A stretch of DNA of 64,000 nt from Arthrobacter sp. 131MFCol6.1 (GTDB lineage: Bacteria > Actinomycetota > Actinomycetes > Actinomycetales > Micrococcaceae), in contig NZ_KB895541.1 of the NCBI RefSeq assembly GCF_000374925.1, positions 248,001 through 312,000 on the forward strand, written 5' to 3'. Both the position numbers and the translations under genes were made by a program. This document shows positions 5,691-18,034 of this stretch, piece after piece (position 1 is the first letter of the stretch; every line of letters starts with the position of its first letter). The notes below the pieces were generated by a model, which was not told the DNA's origin, did not search any database, and was given only the letters and a program-made list of their open reading frames with translations.

Positions 5691-5739
5691 CCGGCCCTCC
5701 GTATCCTAGCTTCGCCCCGGCGGCGCCGGGGCAGGTTCC

Positions 5740-5798
5740 CGGACCTCGCTGCGCTCGGGCTGCATAAGCGTTTTTCTTGTCTTTTTTGCTGCTGTCCT
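5740..5798. repeat. Dispersed repeat, copy A (other copy at 23323-23379)
   Basis: This 59-base stretch starts CGGACCTCGCTGCGCTCGGG and ends GCTGCTGTCCT. It recurs at 23323-23379 with a few substitutions and small length changes in its T-rich part. Both copies follow closely after a resolvase remnant, which suggests a shared element end or a conserved downstream region of related resolvase genes. Confidence 0.65.
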
Positions 5799-6035
5799 TA
5801 TGGTGTTGTCGGGTGGTTCCGTGGCCGTTGTAGGGTCGTGGCTACCCAGGGGAGACGGGTATGGCTTTGTTGCTGTGGCCGGACGACTCGTGTCGTGACG
5901 GCTCCGTAGGATTGGCCACCCGCCGCCCCGCGATGACCCGACCGCTGATTGAGAGACGCGACATGATCGCCGGATAAGGACACGACGGCGCGGTTATCTG
6001 CCGGGTTCCACCCATCCGACAGACTGGAGGCTGTT
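5799..6035 (+). ncRNA. Candidate IS110 left-end non-coding (bridge-type) RNA region
   Basis: IS110-group elements encode a structured guide RNA in the non-coding end upstream of the transposase. The 237 bases between the resolvase scar and the TTG start of the IS110 transposase hold no gene and are the expected place. I see several short self-complementary stretches but did not fold them, so position and boundaries are inference from family knowledge only. Confidence 0.35.
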
Positions 6036-10534: not shown

Positions 10535-11110
10535 CTAGCGGCCCGATTCCGGGCCGCGAAGCCGGCGCTTGATGAAGATACCCGCCACAACCAACGCAAT
10601 CACCAGGACGGCCGCTACCGCTCCCGCCGTGATCAGTTCTGTCTGGAGGCCAGTGCCGGTGCCTGCCGCAGACGGGGCCGGCGCCGGCGCCGGCGTCGCC
10701 GGGGCGGTCTTGTTCGCGGCGCCGGCGGTGAACGTGAAGGTTCCTTCGATGGGATGGCCGTCGGAGGAAACGACCCGCCAGATGACCGTGTATTTGCCGT
10801 CCGGGGCGTCGGCTTTGACGGCCTGGGTGACGTGGTTGTCGACGATGGTCACGGGCCCGTCGGCCTGATCGGTGCCGGTCGCATCTTCGACGCGGACGAT
10901 GGATCCGATGGCAATCGGGGTGTGGTCGAAGGTCAGGCCGATCTTCGCGGGAACGGTGCTGACCACGGAGCCGTTGGCCGGGTCGGTGGCCTCGAGGACA
11001 TCATGGGCCTGTGCCGCCGCGGCGGGAACCATCAGGAGCGCTGCCGTGACCAGGACCAGCAGGTACCGCGTGAGCCGGCCTCCCGGACCGGATCGGAATG
11101 TCGATCTCAT
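10535..11110 (-). CDS. copC: CopC-type copper-binding protein
   Basis: A Sec signal peptide (cleavage probably after AAAAQA) exposes the mature N-terminal His of HDVLEATDPANGS, which in CopC/YobA proteins forms the Cu(II) site together with a later His. The beta-sandwich core follows, with GKYTVIWRVVSSDGHPIEGTFTF (read in two parts) holding the second His. An Ala/Pro-rich linker leads to one C-terminal helix and a short Arg/Lys tail, so the domain is tethered outside the membrane. The start at 11110 has AAAGGA upstream. It lies downstream of the YcnI gene on the same strand, 78 bases apart, probably one transcript. Confidence 0.9.
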   Translation of the reverse strand: MRSTFRSGPGGRLTRYLLVLVTAALLMVPAAAAQAHDVLEATDPANGSVVSTVPAKIGLTFDHTPIAIGSIVRVEDATGTDQADGPVTIVDNHVTQAVKADAPDGKYTVIWRVVSSDGHPIEGTFTFTAGAANKTAPATPAPAPAPSAAGTGTGLQTELITAGAVAAVLVIALVVAGIFIKRRLRGPESGR

Positions 11111-11188
11111 GGGCGCGTCCTTTCAGGGTGTCGGCACCCGGGGCTGTGGCGGGACGTTGCCCGTCCCGCCACAGCCCCGGGATTGGTG

Positions 11189-11923
11189 CTACTTGGCTGC
11201 TGTGCGGCTGCGCCGGCCGGCGAGGACCAGTCCCAGCGCGGTTGCGCCGAGAACGAAGCCGGCGGCGCCCAGGACGATCCCCCACACGGCTGCCGAATCG
11301 CTGGACGTCTCCGAGGTCTGGCTCGCGGCCGCCGGGGACGCCGCAGCCGGAGAAGCGGAGGGGGCGGTTCCGTCTTCGGCGGTGGTGGTGAAGGACGGGG
11401 CCGGGTGCTGGGGCTCGGGCTGGCCCTCAGCGCTTTGTTCGTCCCAATTCACGACGGTCCCGTCGGTGTAGGTCTGGGCCGCCTTCAGGGTCACGGTCGT
11501 CCCCGCCGCGGGGAGTTTGCCCACGGAGAGTGAGAACGCCTGGTATTCGTTCTGCCCGAGCTGGTGTGCTGCGTCGGCGGTCCAGACCACGGAGCTCGGG
11601 GCCTTGGTCACGGTCGTACCGGACACGGTGACCGGCTTGGGCAGGTCGCTGGTGATGACCTGGGTGCTCCAGCCCTCGACGGGTTTGACCGAGACCGAGG
11701 TGAACGGGGTATCGGTGGGCAGCTTGACCTCGAGTTTGCTGGTCTTCGCGGTCGGGGATTCGTTCGGGACATTGAACGTCAGGTGCGTGTAGCCGTTGGC
11801 GCCGGTGTCATCGGGGTTCACGGTGACGTGGGCGGAGGCGGCCGCGGCGCTTAGGGCGATCATCCCCGCCGCCGCGGTGACGGCGGTCAGGGTCTTGAGG
11901 GGACGACGGATTGAGGTTTTCAT
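11189..11923 (-). CDS. ycnI: YcnI-family (DUF1775) copper-binding protein
   Basis: A signal peptide ending AAASA leaves mature HVTVNPDDTGANGYTHL, the hallmark start of the YcnI domain in which the first His and a nearby acidic residue bind copper. The domain continues with FTSVSVKPVEGWSTQV and ends near residue 160; a Ser/Ala-rich linker and one C-terminal helix (residues about 215-238) anchor it. Two ATG codons lie six bases apart; 11923 is chosen because GGAAGG sits 7 bases before it and only one base before 11929. YcnI proteins are thought to act as copper chaperones beside CopC/CopD-type proteins. Confidence 0.9.
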   Translation of the reverse strand: MKTSIRRPLKTLTAVTAAAGMIALSAAAASAHVTVNPDDTGANGYTHLTFNVPNESPTAKTSKLEVKLPTDTPFTSVSVKPVEGWSTQVITSDLPKPVTVSGTTVTKAPSSVVWTADAAHQLGQNEYQAFSLSVGKLPAAGTTVTLKAAQTYTDGTVVNWDEQSAEGQPEPQHPAPSFTTTAEDGTAPSASPAAASPAAASQTSETSSDSAAVWGIVLGAAGFVLGATALGLVLAGRRSRTAAK

Positions 11924-12061
11924 TAACATGCCTTCCAAAAATGGGTGCGCCAAGGGGCCGCTCGTGCGGCGGCGCAAGGGAGGGGAAACACGACGGATCC
12001 ACGGCAACGGAGTTTCCTGGGCAGGATCCGGCCGGGTCAGCGGCGTGAGGTCAGGTGCCGC

Positions 12062-12652: not shown

Positions 12653-12895
12653 GCCAATCGCCACCCTTCCATCCAATGTTGCCGCTCTCCACTCTAGAGA
12701 AAGCGGAGGCGTGCAGGGTAATCGCGCCCCAGTGACTATGTCCGTCTGCTAGTAGGACGGTCCGAACGGTACCTAGGACTTTGAATGGCTGCTGATTCAC
12801 CTGCTGCGCCCATCGGTGCCTGGCCCGCGGCTGCAAGAGGAATGCCGCCCTGACGTGGTGCCGGACGAAGCCGGCGGGTTTAGCCTTGTTCTAAC
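12653..12895. other. Divergent intergenic region
   Basis: This 243-base stretch separates the leftward copper genes from the rightward fluoride-switch gene. No coding potential is convincing. It should hold promoters for both directions; AT-richer bases near 12690-12790 are the likeliest place. Confidence 0.4.
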
Positions 12896-12983
12896 GGTGA
12901 TGGATCCCACCGGGACCGGCTGGCGTGCCGGTTCGGACCGCCGAGGTGGCTGATGGGTCCTGCCCCGAAGGCGAAGGGCAGGG
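12896..12983 (+). promoter_or_regulatory. Candidate fluoride riboswitch (crcB motif), copy 1, with anti-ribosome-site hairpin
   Basis: The RNA starts GGTGATGGATCCCACC, where GGTG pairs with CACC around the conserved GATG. It continues GACCGCC-GAGGT-GGC-TGATGGGTCCTGCC, giving the GCC/GGC stem and the conserved second GATG-N-CCT-GCC end. GATC (12900-12903 region) can pair with GGTC near the 3' end as the motif's pseudoknot. Right after it, CCTGCCC (12959-12965) is the exact complement of GGGCAGG (12976-12982), the ribosome site of the next gene. Fluoride binding would hold CCTGCC in the aptamer and free the site, making this a translational ON switch. Confidence 0.75.
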
Positions 12984-12991
12984 CATGCGCT

Positions 12992-13852
12992 ATGACTGGA
13001 CATCGGAACGGGCCCGGTACCCCGGAGATGCGCGAACGGGATAGGCTCACCGGCGCCTTGCTGCCCGTTGGCCCGTTGGAACTGTCGGCGGAGGAAGTGC
13101 GGCAGCTCTGGTCGTTCATCCACGGGGACATCATGGACGGGAGCATGCGCCGTCTTCTGCGTGCCTCCCTCGGGTTGTGTCCCCGGCACACCTGGGCCTA
13201 CGTGGTCGTGGAGATTGAACTCTGGCAGGCCGGCGCCGGCGCCCGGGGCGGCCACCAGCCCTTCGACGTCACGGTCCTCTACGAAGACCTCCTCGAACAC
13301 GTCGCCGACGGGCTCGACCGGAAAGGCTCGCTGCTGCACCGCCACCCGGACGATGTGCTCCTGCCGGTGGGGCCGTGCCGGATCTGTGAGGATATGGCTT
13401 CCCCGTCCCTGACCGGTCTGCGGATGGGCTACGCGAACTCCAACACCGAGGCCCTCACGATTGAAGCGAACGGGCTGGCACACACCACAGCGTGGTGCAG
13501 GGAAACATTCCCGCTGTGGCGGGGCAGGGTCTGCCCCGCCTGTGATCCTGACACACCGGAAGGAGACGGTGATCCGGTGCTGTCGTGCCGTTTCCACCTG
13601 GCGTCGCGGCGTCCGTTGCCGGAACCGCTGCGGCATGCGGTGGCCTCGCGCTTGCGGGAGATCAGGGCACGAATGAGGCACCTGACCGAATCCATGACGG
13701 ACTATGGCGCCCCGGTCGGAGATGAGGAGAACGCGTCCTGGATTGAGGCTGTTGGCTTTTTCGCCGGCTGGGGCCTGCCCCTGTACTTGGCAGCGGCCGC
13801 CACCGAAACTGAGTCCGAACCGGACGTCCAAGGTGCGGAGCCCGCGGAATGA
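12992..13852 (+). CDS. Uncharacterised Cys/His-rich protein under a fluoride riboswitch
   Basis: The roughly 286-residue product matches no family I recognise. It is mostly helical, with scattered Cys/His pairs: LCPRHTW, PCRICED, HTTAWCRE, VCPACD and SCRFH. Some of these could form a metal site such as zinc. There is no signal peptide or membrane segment. An upstream ATG at 12953 lies inside the aptamer (TGATGG) and is rejected. The ATG at 12992 stands 9 bases after GGGCAGG, the site sequestered by the riboswitch hairpin. If the switch is right, the protein is made under fluoride stress, yet it is no known fluoride exporter. Confidence 0.75.
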   Translation: MTGHRNGPGTPEMRERDRLTGALLPVGPLELSAEEVRQLWSFIHGDIMDGSMRRLLRASLGLCPRHTWAYVVVEIELWQAGAGARGGHQPFDVTVLYEDLLEHVADGLDRKGSLLHRHPDDVLLPVGPCRICEDMASPSLTGLRMGYANSNTEALTIEANGLAHTTAWCRETFPLWRGRVCPACDPDTPEGDGDPVLSCRFHLASRRPLPEPLRHAVASRLREIRARMRHLTESMTDYGAPVGDEENASWIEAVGFFAGWGLPLYLAAAATETESEPDVQGAEPAE

Positions 13853-13903
13853 CTCCGTCATATGGTGGCGGCTGTCGCTGCTGTGCCTGTAGTCTCTGTT
13901 CAC

Positions 13904-14000
13904 GGTGATGGATCCCGCCGGAACAGCCCGCGCCTAAGGTGAGGGGCGTTCGAACCGCCTCCTGGCTAATGGTTCCTACCTTTGCTGATACGAAGGTAGG
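13904..14000 (+). promoter_or_regulatory. Candidate fluoride riboswitch (crcB motif), copy 2, with anti-ribosome-site hairpin
   Basis: The element repeats the copy-1 architecture: GGTGATGGATCCCGCC at the 5' end (GGTG/CGCC stem with one G-U), then GAACCGCC-TCCT-GGC-TAATGGTTCCTACC at the 3' end. Between them is a variable GC-rich segment. CCTACCTT (13975-13982) is the exact complement of AAGGTAGG (13993-14000), which is the ribosome site six bases before the ATG at 14007. The last strand of the aptamer therefore competes with the ribosome site. Differences between the two copies keep the stems (CACC against CGCC; GAGGT against TCCT loops), which supports an RNA rather than a chance repeat. Confidence 0.8.
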
Positions 14001-14006
14001 TTACCC

Positions 14007-14732
14007 ATGCCCGCACCCGGCACGCTCCTCCTGCTCCGCCACGGCCAAAGTGTCCTGAACGCCCAGGACCGGTTCACCGGCCTGCTGGACCCGCCCCTGA
14101 GTGCCACTGGTGAAGACGAAGCAGCCCGCGCTGGAGCGCTGCTGGCTTCCGCTTCCTTTTTCCCGGCCGTCGTTTACACCTCCACCCTCTCCCGCACCCG
14201 GGACACCGCACGCATTGTCCTGGACGTGCTGGGAGGCCCCGACGTGCCGGTCATACCTGCCTGGGAGTTGAACGAGCGCAGTTACGGTTCCCTCACCGGA
14301 GGATTGCGGCAGGAACTGCTGAGCGAGCTCGGGGCGGAGGTTTTCCACTTCTGGCGGCGCTCCTATTACGGGGCGCCCCCGCCGATGCCATCATCCCGGC
14401 TGACCGCACTAAGGCGCAGTCCAGCCTTCGCCGGGCTGCCTCCTGAAACGGTCAAGGCCACCGAATCCCTCTGCGGGGTGGTCAAACGGGTCCGGATCTT
14501 CTGGCACCAGCACCTCCGGCGCAGGCTTCGGGCGGGGGAAGACGTGTTGGTGGTCGGACACGGGAACTCGTTGCGGGCACTGTGTCGCGTCCTGGACCGG
14601 CTTTCCGATGCCGAGGTCGAGGCTCTGAAGCGCGCCTATTTGCGGCCGTCAGCCCGCAGCACCGCGACGACAACGCCCCGCAGCAGCCCAGCCCCAGCCA
14701 CACAGCCCCGACCAAGCCGGGACCGAAAGTGA
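14007..14732 (+). CDS. Phosphoglycerate-mutase-like histidine phosphatase
   Basis: The N-terminus carries the catalytic LRHGQSVLNAQDRFTGLLDP, close to 2,3-bisphosphoglycerate-dependent phosphoglycerate mutase (GpmA). ELNERSYGSLTGG, FWRRSYYGAPPP and VVGHGNSLRALCRVLDRLSD match the GpmA pattern, including the second catalytic His. The enzyme should interconvert 3- and 2-phosphoglycerate, or act as a phosphatase. The C-terminus differs: the usual NIPTG-type segment after LSDAEV is replaced by a Ser/Thr/Pro-rich tail, which could alter activity. Fluoride inhibits enolase, the next glycolytic enzyme, so control by a fluoride riboswitch makes metabolic sense. Confidence 0.85.
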   Translation: MPAPGTLLLLRHGQSVLNAQDRFTGLLDPPLSATGEDEAARAGALLASASFFPAVVYTSTLSRTRDTARIVLDVLGGPDVPVIPAWELNERSYGSLTGGLRQELLSELGAEVFHFWRRSYYGAPPPMPSSRLTALRRSPAFAGLPPETVKATESLCGVVKRVRIFWHQHLRRRLRAGEDVLVVGHGNSLRALCRVLDRLSDAEVEALKRAYLRPSARSTATTTPRSSPAPATQPRPSRDRK

Positions 14733-14736
14733 AGAA

Positions 14737-15009
14737 GTGAGCACCATAACCCAAGCCCTCCAAGACAGGACCTTTCTGGAACCGGACGCCGGCTGGTCGG
14801 CCGACCAGCTTCCAGACAGGCCTGGCACCGTCCTGCAGTATCTCAACGCCCGCGATGAGCGGATCATCGCCGTGCTGTGCGACACCGGCCTCTGGCGGGT
14901 CACCGCCGTCACCGGGCGCGGTGCCGTGCACCAGCTCTCCTGGACCCCGGCGGCCCTGGCCGCCGATCTGTGGCGGGTGACCTACTACGATGTCGTCCCG
15001 GAGCCCTGA
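14737..15009 (+). CDS. Small uncharacterised protein downstream of the mutase-like gene
   Basis: The 90-residue product is acidic, has no signal peptide or membrane segment, and contains VLCDTGLWRVTAVTGRGAVH and a C-terminal WRVTYYDVVPEP. I do not recognise the family. It begins with GTG only four bases after the stop of the mutase-like gene, so the two are almost certainly co-translated. It would then also be under the second fluoride riboswitch. Confidence 0.65.
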   Translation: MSTITQALQDRTFLEPDAGWSADQLPDRPGTVLQYLNARDERIIAVLCDTGLWRVTAVTGRGAVHQLSWTPAALAADLWRVTYYDVVPEP

Positions 15010-15046
15010 CCAGCGGTAACACGGCGACAATCGCCACGCCAGGCAC

Positions 15047-15098
15047 TACGATCTGCTATGGGGCAGCCGGGGACCGGCTCGAAAACTTGGGGGAACAA
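15047..15098 (+). promoter_or_regulatory. Shared leader and promoter, copy 1
   Basis: TACGAT (15047-15052) is a good -10 box. It is followed by GGGGACCGG-(C)TCGAAAACT-GGGGGAA before the TTG start. The same arrangement recurs at 16135-16183 before the next gene, with TACGAT, GGGGACCGG and GGGGGAA conserved. The likeliest reading is a duplicated promoter plus a strong ribosome site. Confidence 0.5.
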
Positions 15099-16085
15099 TT
15101 GAAAACACCTGCCGTCCGCCTCGGCATCGCCGGAGCATTCGCCGCGCTCTTGATGGCCGGCCTCGCTGTCCCGGCCCATGCCGATGAAATATCCCAACCT
15201 GCCCCGCCCGTCACGACCTACCCCACGGCGCCGGCCGGGCCTGCGGCCGCGGACGCGGAGCTGAAGCCGCTGACGAACGACACCGAGCCGGTCGTTACCG
15301 GGACCTTCATCACCGGCTCTGTGATGAAGGTGACGGCCGGCACCTGGTCGGAACCGTCCGACCCGCTGACGTTCACCTACAGCTGGTTTTCCCCGGACGG
15401 GAAGGTGCTGGCCAGCGGCCCGAGGTTCACGCCCGGCGTGTCCGACGTCGGCGCGACCGTCACAGTCCTCGTGACGGCCACAGCACCGGGTTACGACACC
15501 GCCGAGGTGCGGGTCACGGCACCCAAGCCCGTGACCTTGCGTGACCCGGCCCAGACCAGGCCGCCTTACATCCAAGGGACGCCGACCGTGGGGAAAGCCC
15601 TGACCGTCGTCCCCGGCCTCTGGGCACGTAATGAAATGAACGTGGTGCGCGAATCCTACCTATGGATGCGCGACGGCGTGACGATCCCCGGGGCCACTGG
15701 CCGCCACTACACGCCTGTGGCTGCCGACTTGGGCAGGAAGATCGACATCTGGGTCACCTCGACGCTGAATGACAGGATCCTGAAGACCCAGGGGGCCTTC
15801 TCTTCGGCGAAGGTGGCTGCCGGGACTCTGACTTCGTCCACGCCGACGATCGTCGGCACCGTCAAAGCCGGAAATGTCCTGACCGTGAAGCGGGGCACGT
15901 GGACCCGGGGCACGTCCTTCAAATACCGCTGGCTGCGCAACGGCGTCCCGATCTCAGGCGCCTGGTATTCGACCTACAAGGTCCGGACCGCCGACAGGGG
16001 CACCAAGCTCACCGTCAGCGTCACCGGTTCCAAGGCCGGCTACAAGACCATCACCACGACCAGCAGCGAGTATCCCGCCAGCTGA
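15099..16085 (+). CDS. Secreted tandem-repeat (Ig-like) protein 1
   Basis: A signal peptide (VRLGIAGAFAALLMAGLAVP, cleaved near AHA) is followed by three repeats of about 90 residues. Each has the pattern PTVxGxxxVGxxLTVxPGxW, then YxWLRxGxxIxGA, then ADxGxxIxVxVTxxxxGY. This immunoglobulin-like repeat is common in secreted and cell-wall proteins of actinobacteria and is typically structural or adhesive. There is no LPXTG motif or C-terminal helix, so the protein is probably released or held non-covalently. TTG at 15099 is chosen because GGGGGAA precedes it and the signal peptide begins there. Confidence 0.8.
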   Translation: MKTPAVRLGIAGAFAALLMAGLAVPAHADEISQPAPPVTTYPTAPAGPAAADAELKPLTNDTEPVVTGTFITGSVMKVTAGTWSEPSDPLTFTYSWFSPDGKVLASGPRFTPGVSDVGATVTVLVTATAPGYDTAEVRVTAPKPVTLRDPAQTRPPYIQGTPTVGKALTVVPGLWARNEMNVVRESYLWMRDGVTIPGATGRHYTPVAADLGRKIDIWVTSTLNDRILKTQGAFSSAKVAAGTLTSSTPTIVGTVKAGNVLTVKRGTWTRGTSFKYRWLRNGVPISGAWYSTYKVRTADRGTKLTVSVTGSKAGYKTITTTSSEYPAS

Positions 16086-16134
16086 CCCGGGCCGCGCCGT
16101 TCAACGGCAGCGTCCAAAGGGGGCTTCCAGACAT

Positions 16135-16183
16135 TACGATCATCTGCGGGGCCGGGGGACCGGTCCGAAGACTGGGGGAAGAA
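16135..16183 (+). promoter_or_regulatory. Shared leader and promoter, copy 2
   Basis: It has TACGAT (16135-16140), then GGGGGACCGG, CCGAAGACT and GGGGGAA before the TTG start, matching the leader at 15047-15098 base for base over most of its length. The distance from the -10 box to the start codon is 43-46 bases in both copies. Confidence 0.5.
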
Positions 16184-18034
16184 TTGAACAAGAAGACTGT
16201 CCGCCTCGCCGCGGGCGGGGCACTCGCCCTGTTGCTGGCCGGGCTGGCCGTTCCTGCGCAGGCCGATACCGGGGTGTGCGGCCCGGTGGTTGACTGGGTC
16301 AAATACTGCACCGCAGCGGACGGCTCCGCCTACCCGGTGTTGATCAATGAGGCGGCGACCGGTCCCCGCCCGGTCGCCGCCGGCGCGCTGCTGGTCGGCA
16401 ACACGCTCACCGTCTTCGACGGCGCCTGGCAACCGGCTGACGCAACACTTACACACCAATGGGTCCGCAACGATGTTCCCATCCTCGGTGCCACGGGGGC
16501 CACGTACACGCTCACAAGGGCGGACGCCGGCAAGTACGTCCGGGTCACGACCACCGCGACGGCGCCCGGCTACGCGACGTCAACCATGTGGTCCCTCAAG
16601 GGCGTGCCTGTTTCGAATGCCTCCGGCCCCATCAAGTCACTCCAGCCGGCCGTCACTTTCAGGGTCGAGCCCGCGACCACGTACCCGGCCCTGCCGAGCC
16701 CCATCATGGTTGCCCGCACGGGCAGATGGATCGACTGGGGTCTTGCCCGGGACGTCCAGTTCAACTACCAGTGGCTGCGCGACGGCGAGCCCATCCCGGG
16801 TGCCACCGGCCGAACGTTCGACCGCACAGGCTGGGGACCGACGGGGTCGCTCAGCGTCCGGGTCAACGCCTACGCCGCCGGCTACGATCCGGTCACCGTC
16901 ATCGGACACGCCGGATCCGGCTCATTCTCCCCGGCGACTCCCGGCGCCGTGGTCACCGGCGGAACCGGCCTCGGGGAAGTCCTGACCGGCACCGACGATG
17001 TACCTTGGCATGACAGCATCCTGGGCCCGAACCGGTACCCGCATGCCTACCAGTGGCTGCGAGACGGTGTCGCGGTTCCCGACGCGACCGGCCGGACCTA
17101 CACCATCACGGCCGAGGACCAGGGCCACACCCTGGTCCTGTTCACTGACACCGATAAATACGACGCCTACTCCAACGCGGTGGCAGTACCGGCGGCCGCA
17201 GGAGTCGAGCTGAAGCAGTTGACGAACGTCGCCAAGCCCGTCCTGACCGGCGAAGCTCTGATCGGGCGGGCCATGTCCGTGACGCCCGGCACTTGGTCCG
17301 CGCCGTCCGAAACCCTGACCGTCACCTATAACTGGCTGTCCCCGGACGGAAAAGTGTCCGGCACCGGCTCGACCTACAGCCCCGACGCGAACGACGTCGA
17401 TACCACGGTCACCGTCCTCGTGACCGCCTTAGCACCCGGCTACGCCACCGCCCGGGTCAGGGTCACCGCTCCGAAGCCCGTGACGCTTCCTGAACCGACC
17501 CAAAAGGTGCCACCGGCTATTAGCCGAGGAACGTTGAGGGTGGGGGGAATTCTCTACGTCGGATTCGGCGTCTGGGCCGATTCTCGTCCGGGACTCGCCC
17601 AGTCCTACCAGTGGTTGCGTAACGGCGTCCCGATCAACGGCGCCACCAACGCCGGGTACCAACTGAAGCATGCGGACTTCGCAACGAATATCTCCGTCAA
17701 GGTCACTTCCACGCTGGAGGGCCGGACCTTGAAGACCCAGACCATCAAGGCCGCGCAGAATATAGGGCCCGCCACCCTGAGGGCCTCGACGCCCACGATC
17801 GCCGGCACAGCCAAGGCGGGAAGGATCGTGACGGCGAAGCCGGGGCTCTGGACGCACGGAACCAAATTCACGTACCGATGGCTGCGCAACGGGAGCCCGA
17901 TCTCCGGGGCGACGGCTTCGACCTACAAAGTCCGGACTGCTGATCGGGACAAGAAGATTTCTGTGCAGGTCACGGGCACCCGGTACGGGTACACGACCGT
18001 GACCACGGGCAGTGGGGTCCTATTCGCCCGCTAA
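16184..18034 (+). CDS. Secreted tandem-repeat (Ig-like) protein 2
   Basis: This 616-residue paralogue of the preceding gene has a signal peptide (VRLAAGGALALLLAGLAVPA, cleaved near QADT). About six repeats follow, with recurrent YQWLRDG/NGVPI-GAT, AD-G and VT-TA-GY motifs. A pair of Cys soon after the signal peptide (VCGPVVDWVKYC) could form a disulfide. The last three repeats are close to the three repeats of protein 1, so the genes arose by duplication with repeat gain or loss. It starts at TTG after GGGGGAA. No cell-wall anchor is seen. Confidence 0.8.
   Translation: MNKKTVRLAAGGALALLLAGLAVPAQADTGVCGPVVDWVKYCTAADGSAYPVLINEAATGPRPVAAGALLVGNTLTVFDGAWQPADATLTHQWVRNDVPILGATGATYTLTRADAGKYVRVTTTATAPGYATSTMWSLKGVPVSNASGPIKSLQPAVTFRVEPATTYPALPSPIMVARTGRWIDWGLARDVQFNYQWLRDGEPIPGATGRTFDRTGWGPTGSLSVRVNAYAAGYDPVTVIGHAGSGSFSPATPGAVVTGGTGLGEVLTGTDDVPWHDSILGPNRYPHAYQWLRDGVAVPDATGRTYTITAEDQGHTLVLFTDTDKYDAYSNAVAVPAAAGVELKQLTNVAKPVLTGEALIGRAMSVTPGTWSAPSETLTVTYNWLSPDGKVSGTGSTYSPDANDVDTTVTVLVTALAPGYATARVRVTAPKPVTLPEPTQKVPPAISRGTLRVGGILYVGFGVWADSRPGLAQSYQWLRNGVPINGATNAGYQLKHADFATNISVKVTSTLEGRTLKTQTIKAAQNIGPATLRASTPTIAGTAKAGRIVTAKPGLWTHGTKFTYRWLRNGSPISGATASTYKVRTADRDKKISVQVTGTRYGYTTVTTGSGVLFAR

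Follow-up and report, generated by a model that had tools for sequence, protein, structure and literature searches.

Probable tandem crcB/fluoride riboswitches before a Cys/His protein gene and a mutase gene in Arthrobacter, and a candidate swapped-pair form of the aptamer in Actinobacteria

Why should two leaders that resemble the crcB/fluoride riboswitch stand in tandem, each before a gene that encodes no fluoride transporter? The question arises from a 64,000-nucleotide stretch of the Arthrobacter sp. 131MFCol6.1 genome (here, the window), in which a first-pass annotation had proposed two tandem fluoride riboswitches controlling an unfamiliar Cys/His protein and a phosphoglycerate mutase-like enzyme.

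Location and class of the two leaders

Both proposed elements were recovered where they had been placed, from the sequence and as matches to the Rfam model RF01734 (Table 1). At gathering thresholds, cmscan of the whole window returned a single match, copy 2 (35.6 bits, with a curated cut-off of 34 bits; E = 3.7e-6). When a 1.4-kb stretch was searched alone, copy 2 reached E = 8e-8 and copy 1 scored 24.0 bits (E = 4.9e-4), under the cut-off, and the Rfam check suggested for the pair thus passes copy 2 only. Against the 4.43-Mb genome, copies 2 and 1 ranked at the top (E = 6e-8 and 3.7e-4) among 17 matches listed, with the third-ranked match at E = 0.25; the two are the sole credible crcB/fluoride aptamers of this genome. 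In a further genome, G137, copy 1 has an orthologue that likewise stands before gene X and scores 34.7 bits, above the cut-off; copy 1 is therefore homologous to RF01734 even though it fails by its own score. The pair belongs to a known riboswitch class, copy 1 by homology and not by score.

The conserved crcB layout that had been claimed holds, with corrections. Letters A6, U7, G8, U38, A40, U41, G42, and U48 are kept in both copies; outside the tertiary pairs, the numbers are those that we take the remaining aptamer letters to have in Thermotoga petrophila. The letters of both tertiary pairs, A6-U38 (reversed Watson-Crick) and A40-U48 (reversed Hoogsteen), as described in an excerpt of PMC11586693, are present in both window copies. 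Like the RF01734 class, the window copies have P1, P2, the pseudoknot, the AUG and UGAUG elements, A40, U48, and, in relatives, the gene context. They differ from it in an insert between P1 and P2 that folds as an extra hairpin in both copies, in a pseudoknot that is imperfect (five of five pairs in copy 1, one being U.G; four of five in copy 2, with one U.U mismatch), in control at the ribosome site, in the presence of two copies, one per gene, and in the sub-cut-off score of copy 1. Copy 2 also carries A at position 39, where copy 1 has G39. The annotation had further held that stem differences between the copies preserve pairing, which is borne out for P1 (GGUG/CACC versus GGUG/CGCC).

Table 1. 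Features of the tandem leaders and their genes in the window, and variant aptamers at three related loci
Feature	Position	Strand	Basis or remark
Copy 1, fluoride riboswitch aptamer	12887..12969	+	RF01734 over the full model, 24.0 bits
Copy 1, P1 (GGUG/CACC) around A6-U7-G8 and 5' pseudoknot strand	12896..12911	+	Sequence, cmscan alignment
Copy 1, GGTG	12896-12899	+	
Copy 1, extra hairpin (P1/P2 insert)	12913..12934	+	cmscan alignment insert, minimum-energy fold
Copy 1, C37-U38-G39-A40-U41-G42, 3' pseudoknot strand, U48	12950..12961	+	Sequence; tertiary pairs as in an excerpt of PMC11586693
Copy 1, anti-ribosome-site strand CCTGCCC (CCUGCCC)	12959..12965	+	Sequence, fold; CCU doubles as pseudoknot and U48
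Gene X, ribosome site GGGCAGG	12976..12982	+	Sequence, helix comparison
Gene X, 286-aa Cys/His protein	12992..13852	+	ATG start; no Pfam or NCBIfam family
Copy 2, fluoride riboswitch aptamer	13895..13985	+	RF01734, 35.6 bits, above cut-off
Copy 2, P1 (GGUG/CGCC) with A6-U7-G8 and 5' pseudoknot strand	13904..13919	+	Sequence, cmscan alignment
Copy 2, GGTG	13904-13907	+	
Copy 2, C37-U38-A39-A40-U41-G42, 3' pseudoknot strand, U48	13966..13977	+	Sequence
Copy 2, anti-ribosome-site strand CCTACCTT (RNA form CCUACCUU)	13975..13982	+	Sequence, fold
Mutase gene, ribosome site AAGGTAGG (also written AAGGUAGG)	13993..14000	+	Sequence
2,3-Bisphosphoglycerate-dependent phosphoglycerate mutase-like gene	14007..14732	+	ATG start; TIGR01258, 174.7 bits, cut-off 81.7
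Variant aptamer	L088:5872-5930	+	Before X
Variant aptamer	L090:5847-5900		Before X
Variant aptamer	L089:748-803		MutS gene 1.8 kb away

Genes behind the leaders and their islands

The product of gene X had been called a Cys/His protein other than CrcB or ClC-F, a description that agrees with its conserved motifs (C63xxH66, C129xxC132, C181xxC184, and C199xxH202) and with family searches. For the window protein no NCBIfam match was found and Pfam matches were sub-threshold only, as were all matches of an 11-member alignment to family databases; the FmdE treble-clef zinc finger (PF23475) scored 16.2 bits, below its cut-off of 23.2, in one of the 11 family members. An AlphaFold2 model from 15 diverse sequences is all-helical (pLDDT 77, pTM 0.78); an earlier alignment of 8 close sequences gave a model that was discarded (pLDDT 32). 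Compared with solved structures, the model had no Foldseek match with E <0.001 (best VIA Z, 3.7), and a sequence search of solved structures gave chance matches only. The Cys/His pattern alone (two CxxC and two CxxH) prompts the tentative and rather doubtful suggestion that X may be a metal-binding, helical cytoplasmic protein supporting metalloenzymes or metal balance under fluoride.

X is rare, occurring in 10 of 150 Arthrobacter genomes and in 3 of 396 genomes of the order, the window genome being counted in both, and it is broken in places (truncated in G047, split in G137 and in the second G082 copy). An aptamer lies directly upstream of X in 14 of 16 related loci (12 canonical and 2 variant, judged by eye). 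The other two are L087 and L089, the latter with X in a MutS-MutS-X-enolase run (enolase by eye). A search of plasmids added pZXY21 and three Burkholderia records, and on the two Burkholderia plasmids fetched (L092 and L093) canonical aptamers of 50.7 and 50.9 bits lie just upstream of X. Like the window, these islands have an X relative that immediately follows a canonical aptamer of its own, and MutS, enolase, and pyrophosphatase genes are annotated in them; unlike the window, they have an X that is only ~27% identical, a dynamin-family gene next to it, and no mutase annotated in the stretch shown. Occurrence in two phyla at ~27% identity makes the link of X to fluoride solid, and X appears to be the first described member of a fluoride-response protein family.

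The mutase falls well within TIGR01258 and scored 184.9 bits with the PRK14120 equivalog (cut-off 366). It is without ~21 conserved residues of the C-terminal region, including the segment aligning to IPTGxPLxY of relatives, and its tail diverges (window 14630-14732), which is possibly a sign of decay. The genome has a second mutase (G000:C4; 42% identical over query residues 7-207) and a single enolase gene, located elsewhere. Both controlled genes are non-transporter genes, as had been claimed, with the qualification that a link between the mutase and fluoride is already published: according to an excerpt of PMC5533749, gpmA of Enterobacter cloacae FRM belongs to a riboswitch operon (ppaC-uspA-eno-gpmA-crcB-orf5249) shown to be fluoride induced. 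What the two systems share is fluoride-riboswitch control of a mutase and of the same companion genes. They differ in that the FRM operon, in the same excerpt, has one riboswitch, upstream of ppaC, whereas the window has one per gene, plus X, and no adjoining crcB. Next to the pair, CopC-domain and DUF1775-domain genes form a copper-type cluster (window 10535-12007, minus strand), and the mutase is followed by two adjoining large frames (14877-18034) that have weak Ig-like matches and, judged by eye, similar repeats.

RF01734 matches above the cut-off occur in 17 of the 150 sampled Arthrobacter genomes; at most loci the downstream genes were identified with phmmer and queries of our choice (E 1e-4 or 1e-5) rather than with Pfam. 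In Arthrobacter cryoconiti the order is aptamer-X-pyrophosphatase-aptamer-mutase-enolase-Usp-CrcB-CrcB, and on plasmid pZXY21, typed as conjugative, X and gpmA each stand behind an aptamer and are followed by an enolase-Usp fusion gene. This island and its conjugative counterpart indicate that the module moves between replicons. The G082 genome has six RF01734 matches, and on its contig 7 (L055) four fluoride aptamers lie within 12 kb, before X, the mutase, a split pyrophosphatase gene, and a MutS pair; the third is followed by the pyrophosphatase gene in two pieces and an MFS-like gene, and crcB was not found there. The association with fluoride-resistance genes is a feature of relatives, the mutase being the sole known companion within the window.

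Two side observations concern the build of these islands. Behind the X leader of G047 (L066), X is cut short and an enolase fragment stands in place, followed by Usp, two CrcB genes, and an MFS gene; this is an island being reshuffled. At L026, L018, L024, L028, and others, genes as unlike as mutase and Usp open with almost the same codons behind the switch (ATG or GTG CCCGCACCCGG), which gives the impression of a copied cassette made up of switch and start region.

Erosion of this kind raises the question of whether the window leaders are relics of an island that has decayed in this strain, switches that may bind fluoride yet control little of use. No crcB, enolase, or Usp gene adjoins the pair (Usp judged by eye), the mutase has lost its conserved C-terminal segment, and X is broken in some other genomes. 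However, the frame of the window X is intact with every conserved Cys/His residue kept, both switch helices are exact, and the P1 differences between the copies preserve pairing. We regard this reading as unlikely, though far from negligible.

The ligand is best judged from the relatives. Near-identical leaders precede usp-crcB-crcB in all 10 fetched leaders of the genus that lack X or the mutase (an MFS gene is next in three), which makes fluoride the likely ligand of the window leaders, and this assignment is strengthened further by the canonical aptamer before the distant Burkholderia X. In the window genome itself, crcB is absent beside the pair, and the two crcB genes sit on another contig without an RF01734 match. 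One might suppose crcB-fold aptamers that have shifted to another ligand, given the sub-cut-off Rfam score of copy 1 and, in copy 2, the A39 and the mismatched pseudoknot pair, but the same subtype precedes usp-crcB-crcB in sister genomes, all eight of the letters listed above are in both copies, and the Burkholderia X sits behind canonical aptamers; such a shift is very improbable. We therefore hold with high confidence that the leaders are tandem crcB/fluoride switches of an Arthrobacter subtype, each acting on its own gene, within a mobile and here eroded fluoride-resistance island with a second mutase and X.

A probable switch at the ribosome site

In both copies the strand that follows the aptamer is exactly complementary to the ribosome site of the gene behind it, just as the first-pass annotation had said, and its CCU is shared with the aptamer, where it closes the pseudoknot and supplies U48. 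The translational ON layout proposed from this complementarity stands as well. Without fluoride, the post-aptamer strand (CCUGCCC or CCUACCUU) would pair with the ribosome site and block initiation, so that each of the two tandem same-strand switches would control translation of its own gene. Transcriptional control through a terminator overlapping the aptamer, an arrangement of many crcB RNAs in an excerpt of Weinberg 2010 (PMC2864571), is highly improbable here: the ribosome site itself is the partner of the competing strand, and a search of 12700-14100 turned up no terminator-like site. A promoter scan of the same interval also found none; such scans say little in Actinobacteria.

Folding agrees with this layout more fully for copy 1. 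In the unconstrained fold both ribosome sites are closed (unpaired probability, ≤0.02). When the anti-site strand was barred from pairing, three of seven ribosome-site positions opened in copy 1 (0.92 to 0.99), and in copy 2 opening reached at most 0.38, since other pairings take over in the pseudoknot-free fold.

Covariation was examined in 37 distinct leaders of Arthrobacter and close relatives, collected by a motif (regex) search of the fetched loci that omitted leaders not fitting it, such as the L081 leader and two on the minus strand of G082. The anti-site/ribosome-site helix has on average 8.19 pairs, versus 6.61 with partners swapped (2000 swaps; highest, 7.46), a lenient comparison because the leaders are kin and each site was picked as the best partner of its own strand; the mean includes L049, whose chosen helix is not at its real ribosome site. 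The fourth pair is G-C in 16 leaders, A-U in 18, and G.U in 3, and the seventh is C-G in 12, U-A in 23, and broken in 2. These compensatory exchanges are better evidence than the swap test.

The aptamers, the exact competing helix, its covariation, and the gene associations are all established from the sequences and their comparison. From them we infer fluoride binding and the ON direction of the window switches. In Bacillus cereus, according to an excerpt of PMC8752731, A40-U48 is the fluoride-dependent linchpin, and one mutation that breaks it abolishes the fluoride-locked state; a CCU coupled to both structures would therefore make a credible ON switch.

A candidate swapped-pair form of the aptamer

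The two variant leaders of X, in Curtobacterium flaccumfaciens (L088) and an Actinomycetales MAG (L090), read GGUG-GUG...CAACG, with A6 changed to G, U38 to C, G39 to A, and U41 to C, and they score 10.8 and 21.0 bits with RF01734. At L088 a canonical aptamer (5703-5775, minus strand, 39.2 bits) is divergent from the variant (5872-5930, plus strand), ~100 bases away. The Levitt pair 15-48 of tRNA undergoes a like exchange, from A-U to G-C in trans Watson-Crick geometry. An exact-pattern search for the variant found it in 0 of 394 genomes, because the pattern, built on L088 and L090, required GGTGGTGG..CTCACC and the copies in Streptomyces have GGCGGTGG..C(T/C)CGCC.

A covariance model (R1) built from these two sequences only gave 63 matches at E 1e-6 in a Streptomyces-like genus, spread over 60 of its 150 sampled genomes; in the same genus RF01734 is above its cut-off in 1 of 150 genomes and reaches E 0.001 in 5 (stricter filters). 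All 63 matches were fetched and 57 parsed, of which 56 are G6-C38 and 1 is A6-U38, all with five of five pseudoknot pairs. By eye, the six unparsed matches all have C38 and five have G6; the 5' strand of L199 is a G run. A crcB gene lies downstream of 61 of the 63 (56 of 57 parsed, 5 of 6 unparsed), the exceptions being L128 (DUF190 only) and L143 (A6-U38 form, none).

From part of the collected loci, 71 distinct aptamers were parsed, 40 with A6-U38 and 31 with G6-C38; the count of 0 mixed pairs is partly ascertainment, because the loci were brought in by the canonical model or by R1. Among the 31 variants, 26 have a downstream complement of the CCU strand of at least six pairs. The G6-C38 loci (L097-L102, L117-L142, L149-L152, L154, L155, L165, L166, and L168) stand mostly before crcB operons, with L102 preceding enolase. 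A fluoride-island gene (crcB, DUF190, X, enolase, dynamin-like, or MutS) lies downstream in 42 of 43 loci of an overlapping set from all sources, L143 having none. The 17 G6-C38 loci tested with RF01734 all stay under the cut-off of 34, 9 of them at 10.8 to 22.9 bits and 8 without a match at the E limit. Two A6-U38 forms with C41, L103 (before a dynamin-like gene) and L143, were found by R1, and L103 passes the Rfam cut-off.

In the phylum sample, R1 matched 50 of 396 genomes at E 0.01. Among the best ten loci, L097-L103 look real and L104-L106 do not on reading; weaker matches are taken for chance. In the order sample, R1 matched 11 of 198 genomes at 1e-4, with the element before crcB in six of the 11 loci read (L149-L152, L154, and L155); L153 is by its coordinates the L089 element of Table 1, and L156-L159 look false on reading. 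Streptomyces sp. F8 pFRL5, S. nigrescens SNP1, and an Embleya sp. also carry the variant (18.2 to 21.5 bits with the Rfam model). On plasmid p1 of S. fungicidicus a crcB operon is present and the variant element was not found, and plasmids searched at the DNA level with the L090 leader yielded only short chance matches.

We infer that the variant still senses fluoride. Taken together, it is probable that Actinobacteria have a form of the fluoride riboswitch, missed by Rfam, that keeps the pseudoknot, A40, U48, and the ribosome-site switch but has G6-C38 for A6-U38, along with C41 and in most cases A39. In a sizeable fraction of Streptomyces this form would govern crcB operons, and in other bacteria enolase and X; X would be a new fluoride-response family of Actinomycetota and Burkholderia. 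Full-text literature searches returned no paper whose title or opening abstract lines describe X or the G6-C38 variant; the gene lists or alignments of Baker 2012 and Ren 2012 may include parts. An excerpt of PMC11139923 reports extensive riboswitch-based fluoride regulation in Streptomyces cattleya, and some Streptomyces switches are therefore already known, of whichever form; it also notes that the fluorinating enzyme was first identified from this group.

Riboswitches are a sure guide to genes that counter fluoride toxicity. Beyond the window pair, the analysis would add a new protein family linked to fluoride, together with a swapped-pair riboswitch form common in Streptomyces. Its association with fluoride aptamers in two phyla makes X a candidate new resistance factor. 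The variant, if true, would mean that the fluoride sensor of many Streptomyces has been overlooked by present annotation, and it would supply, in nature, a double change in a tertiary pair next to the fluoride site, with which the way that RNA holds on to an anion could be tested directly.
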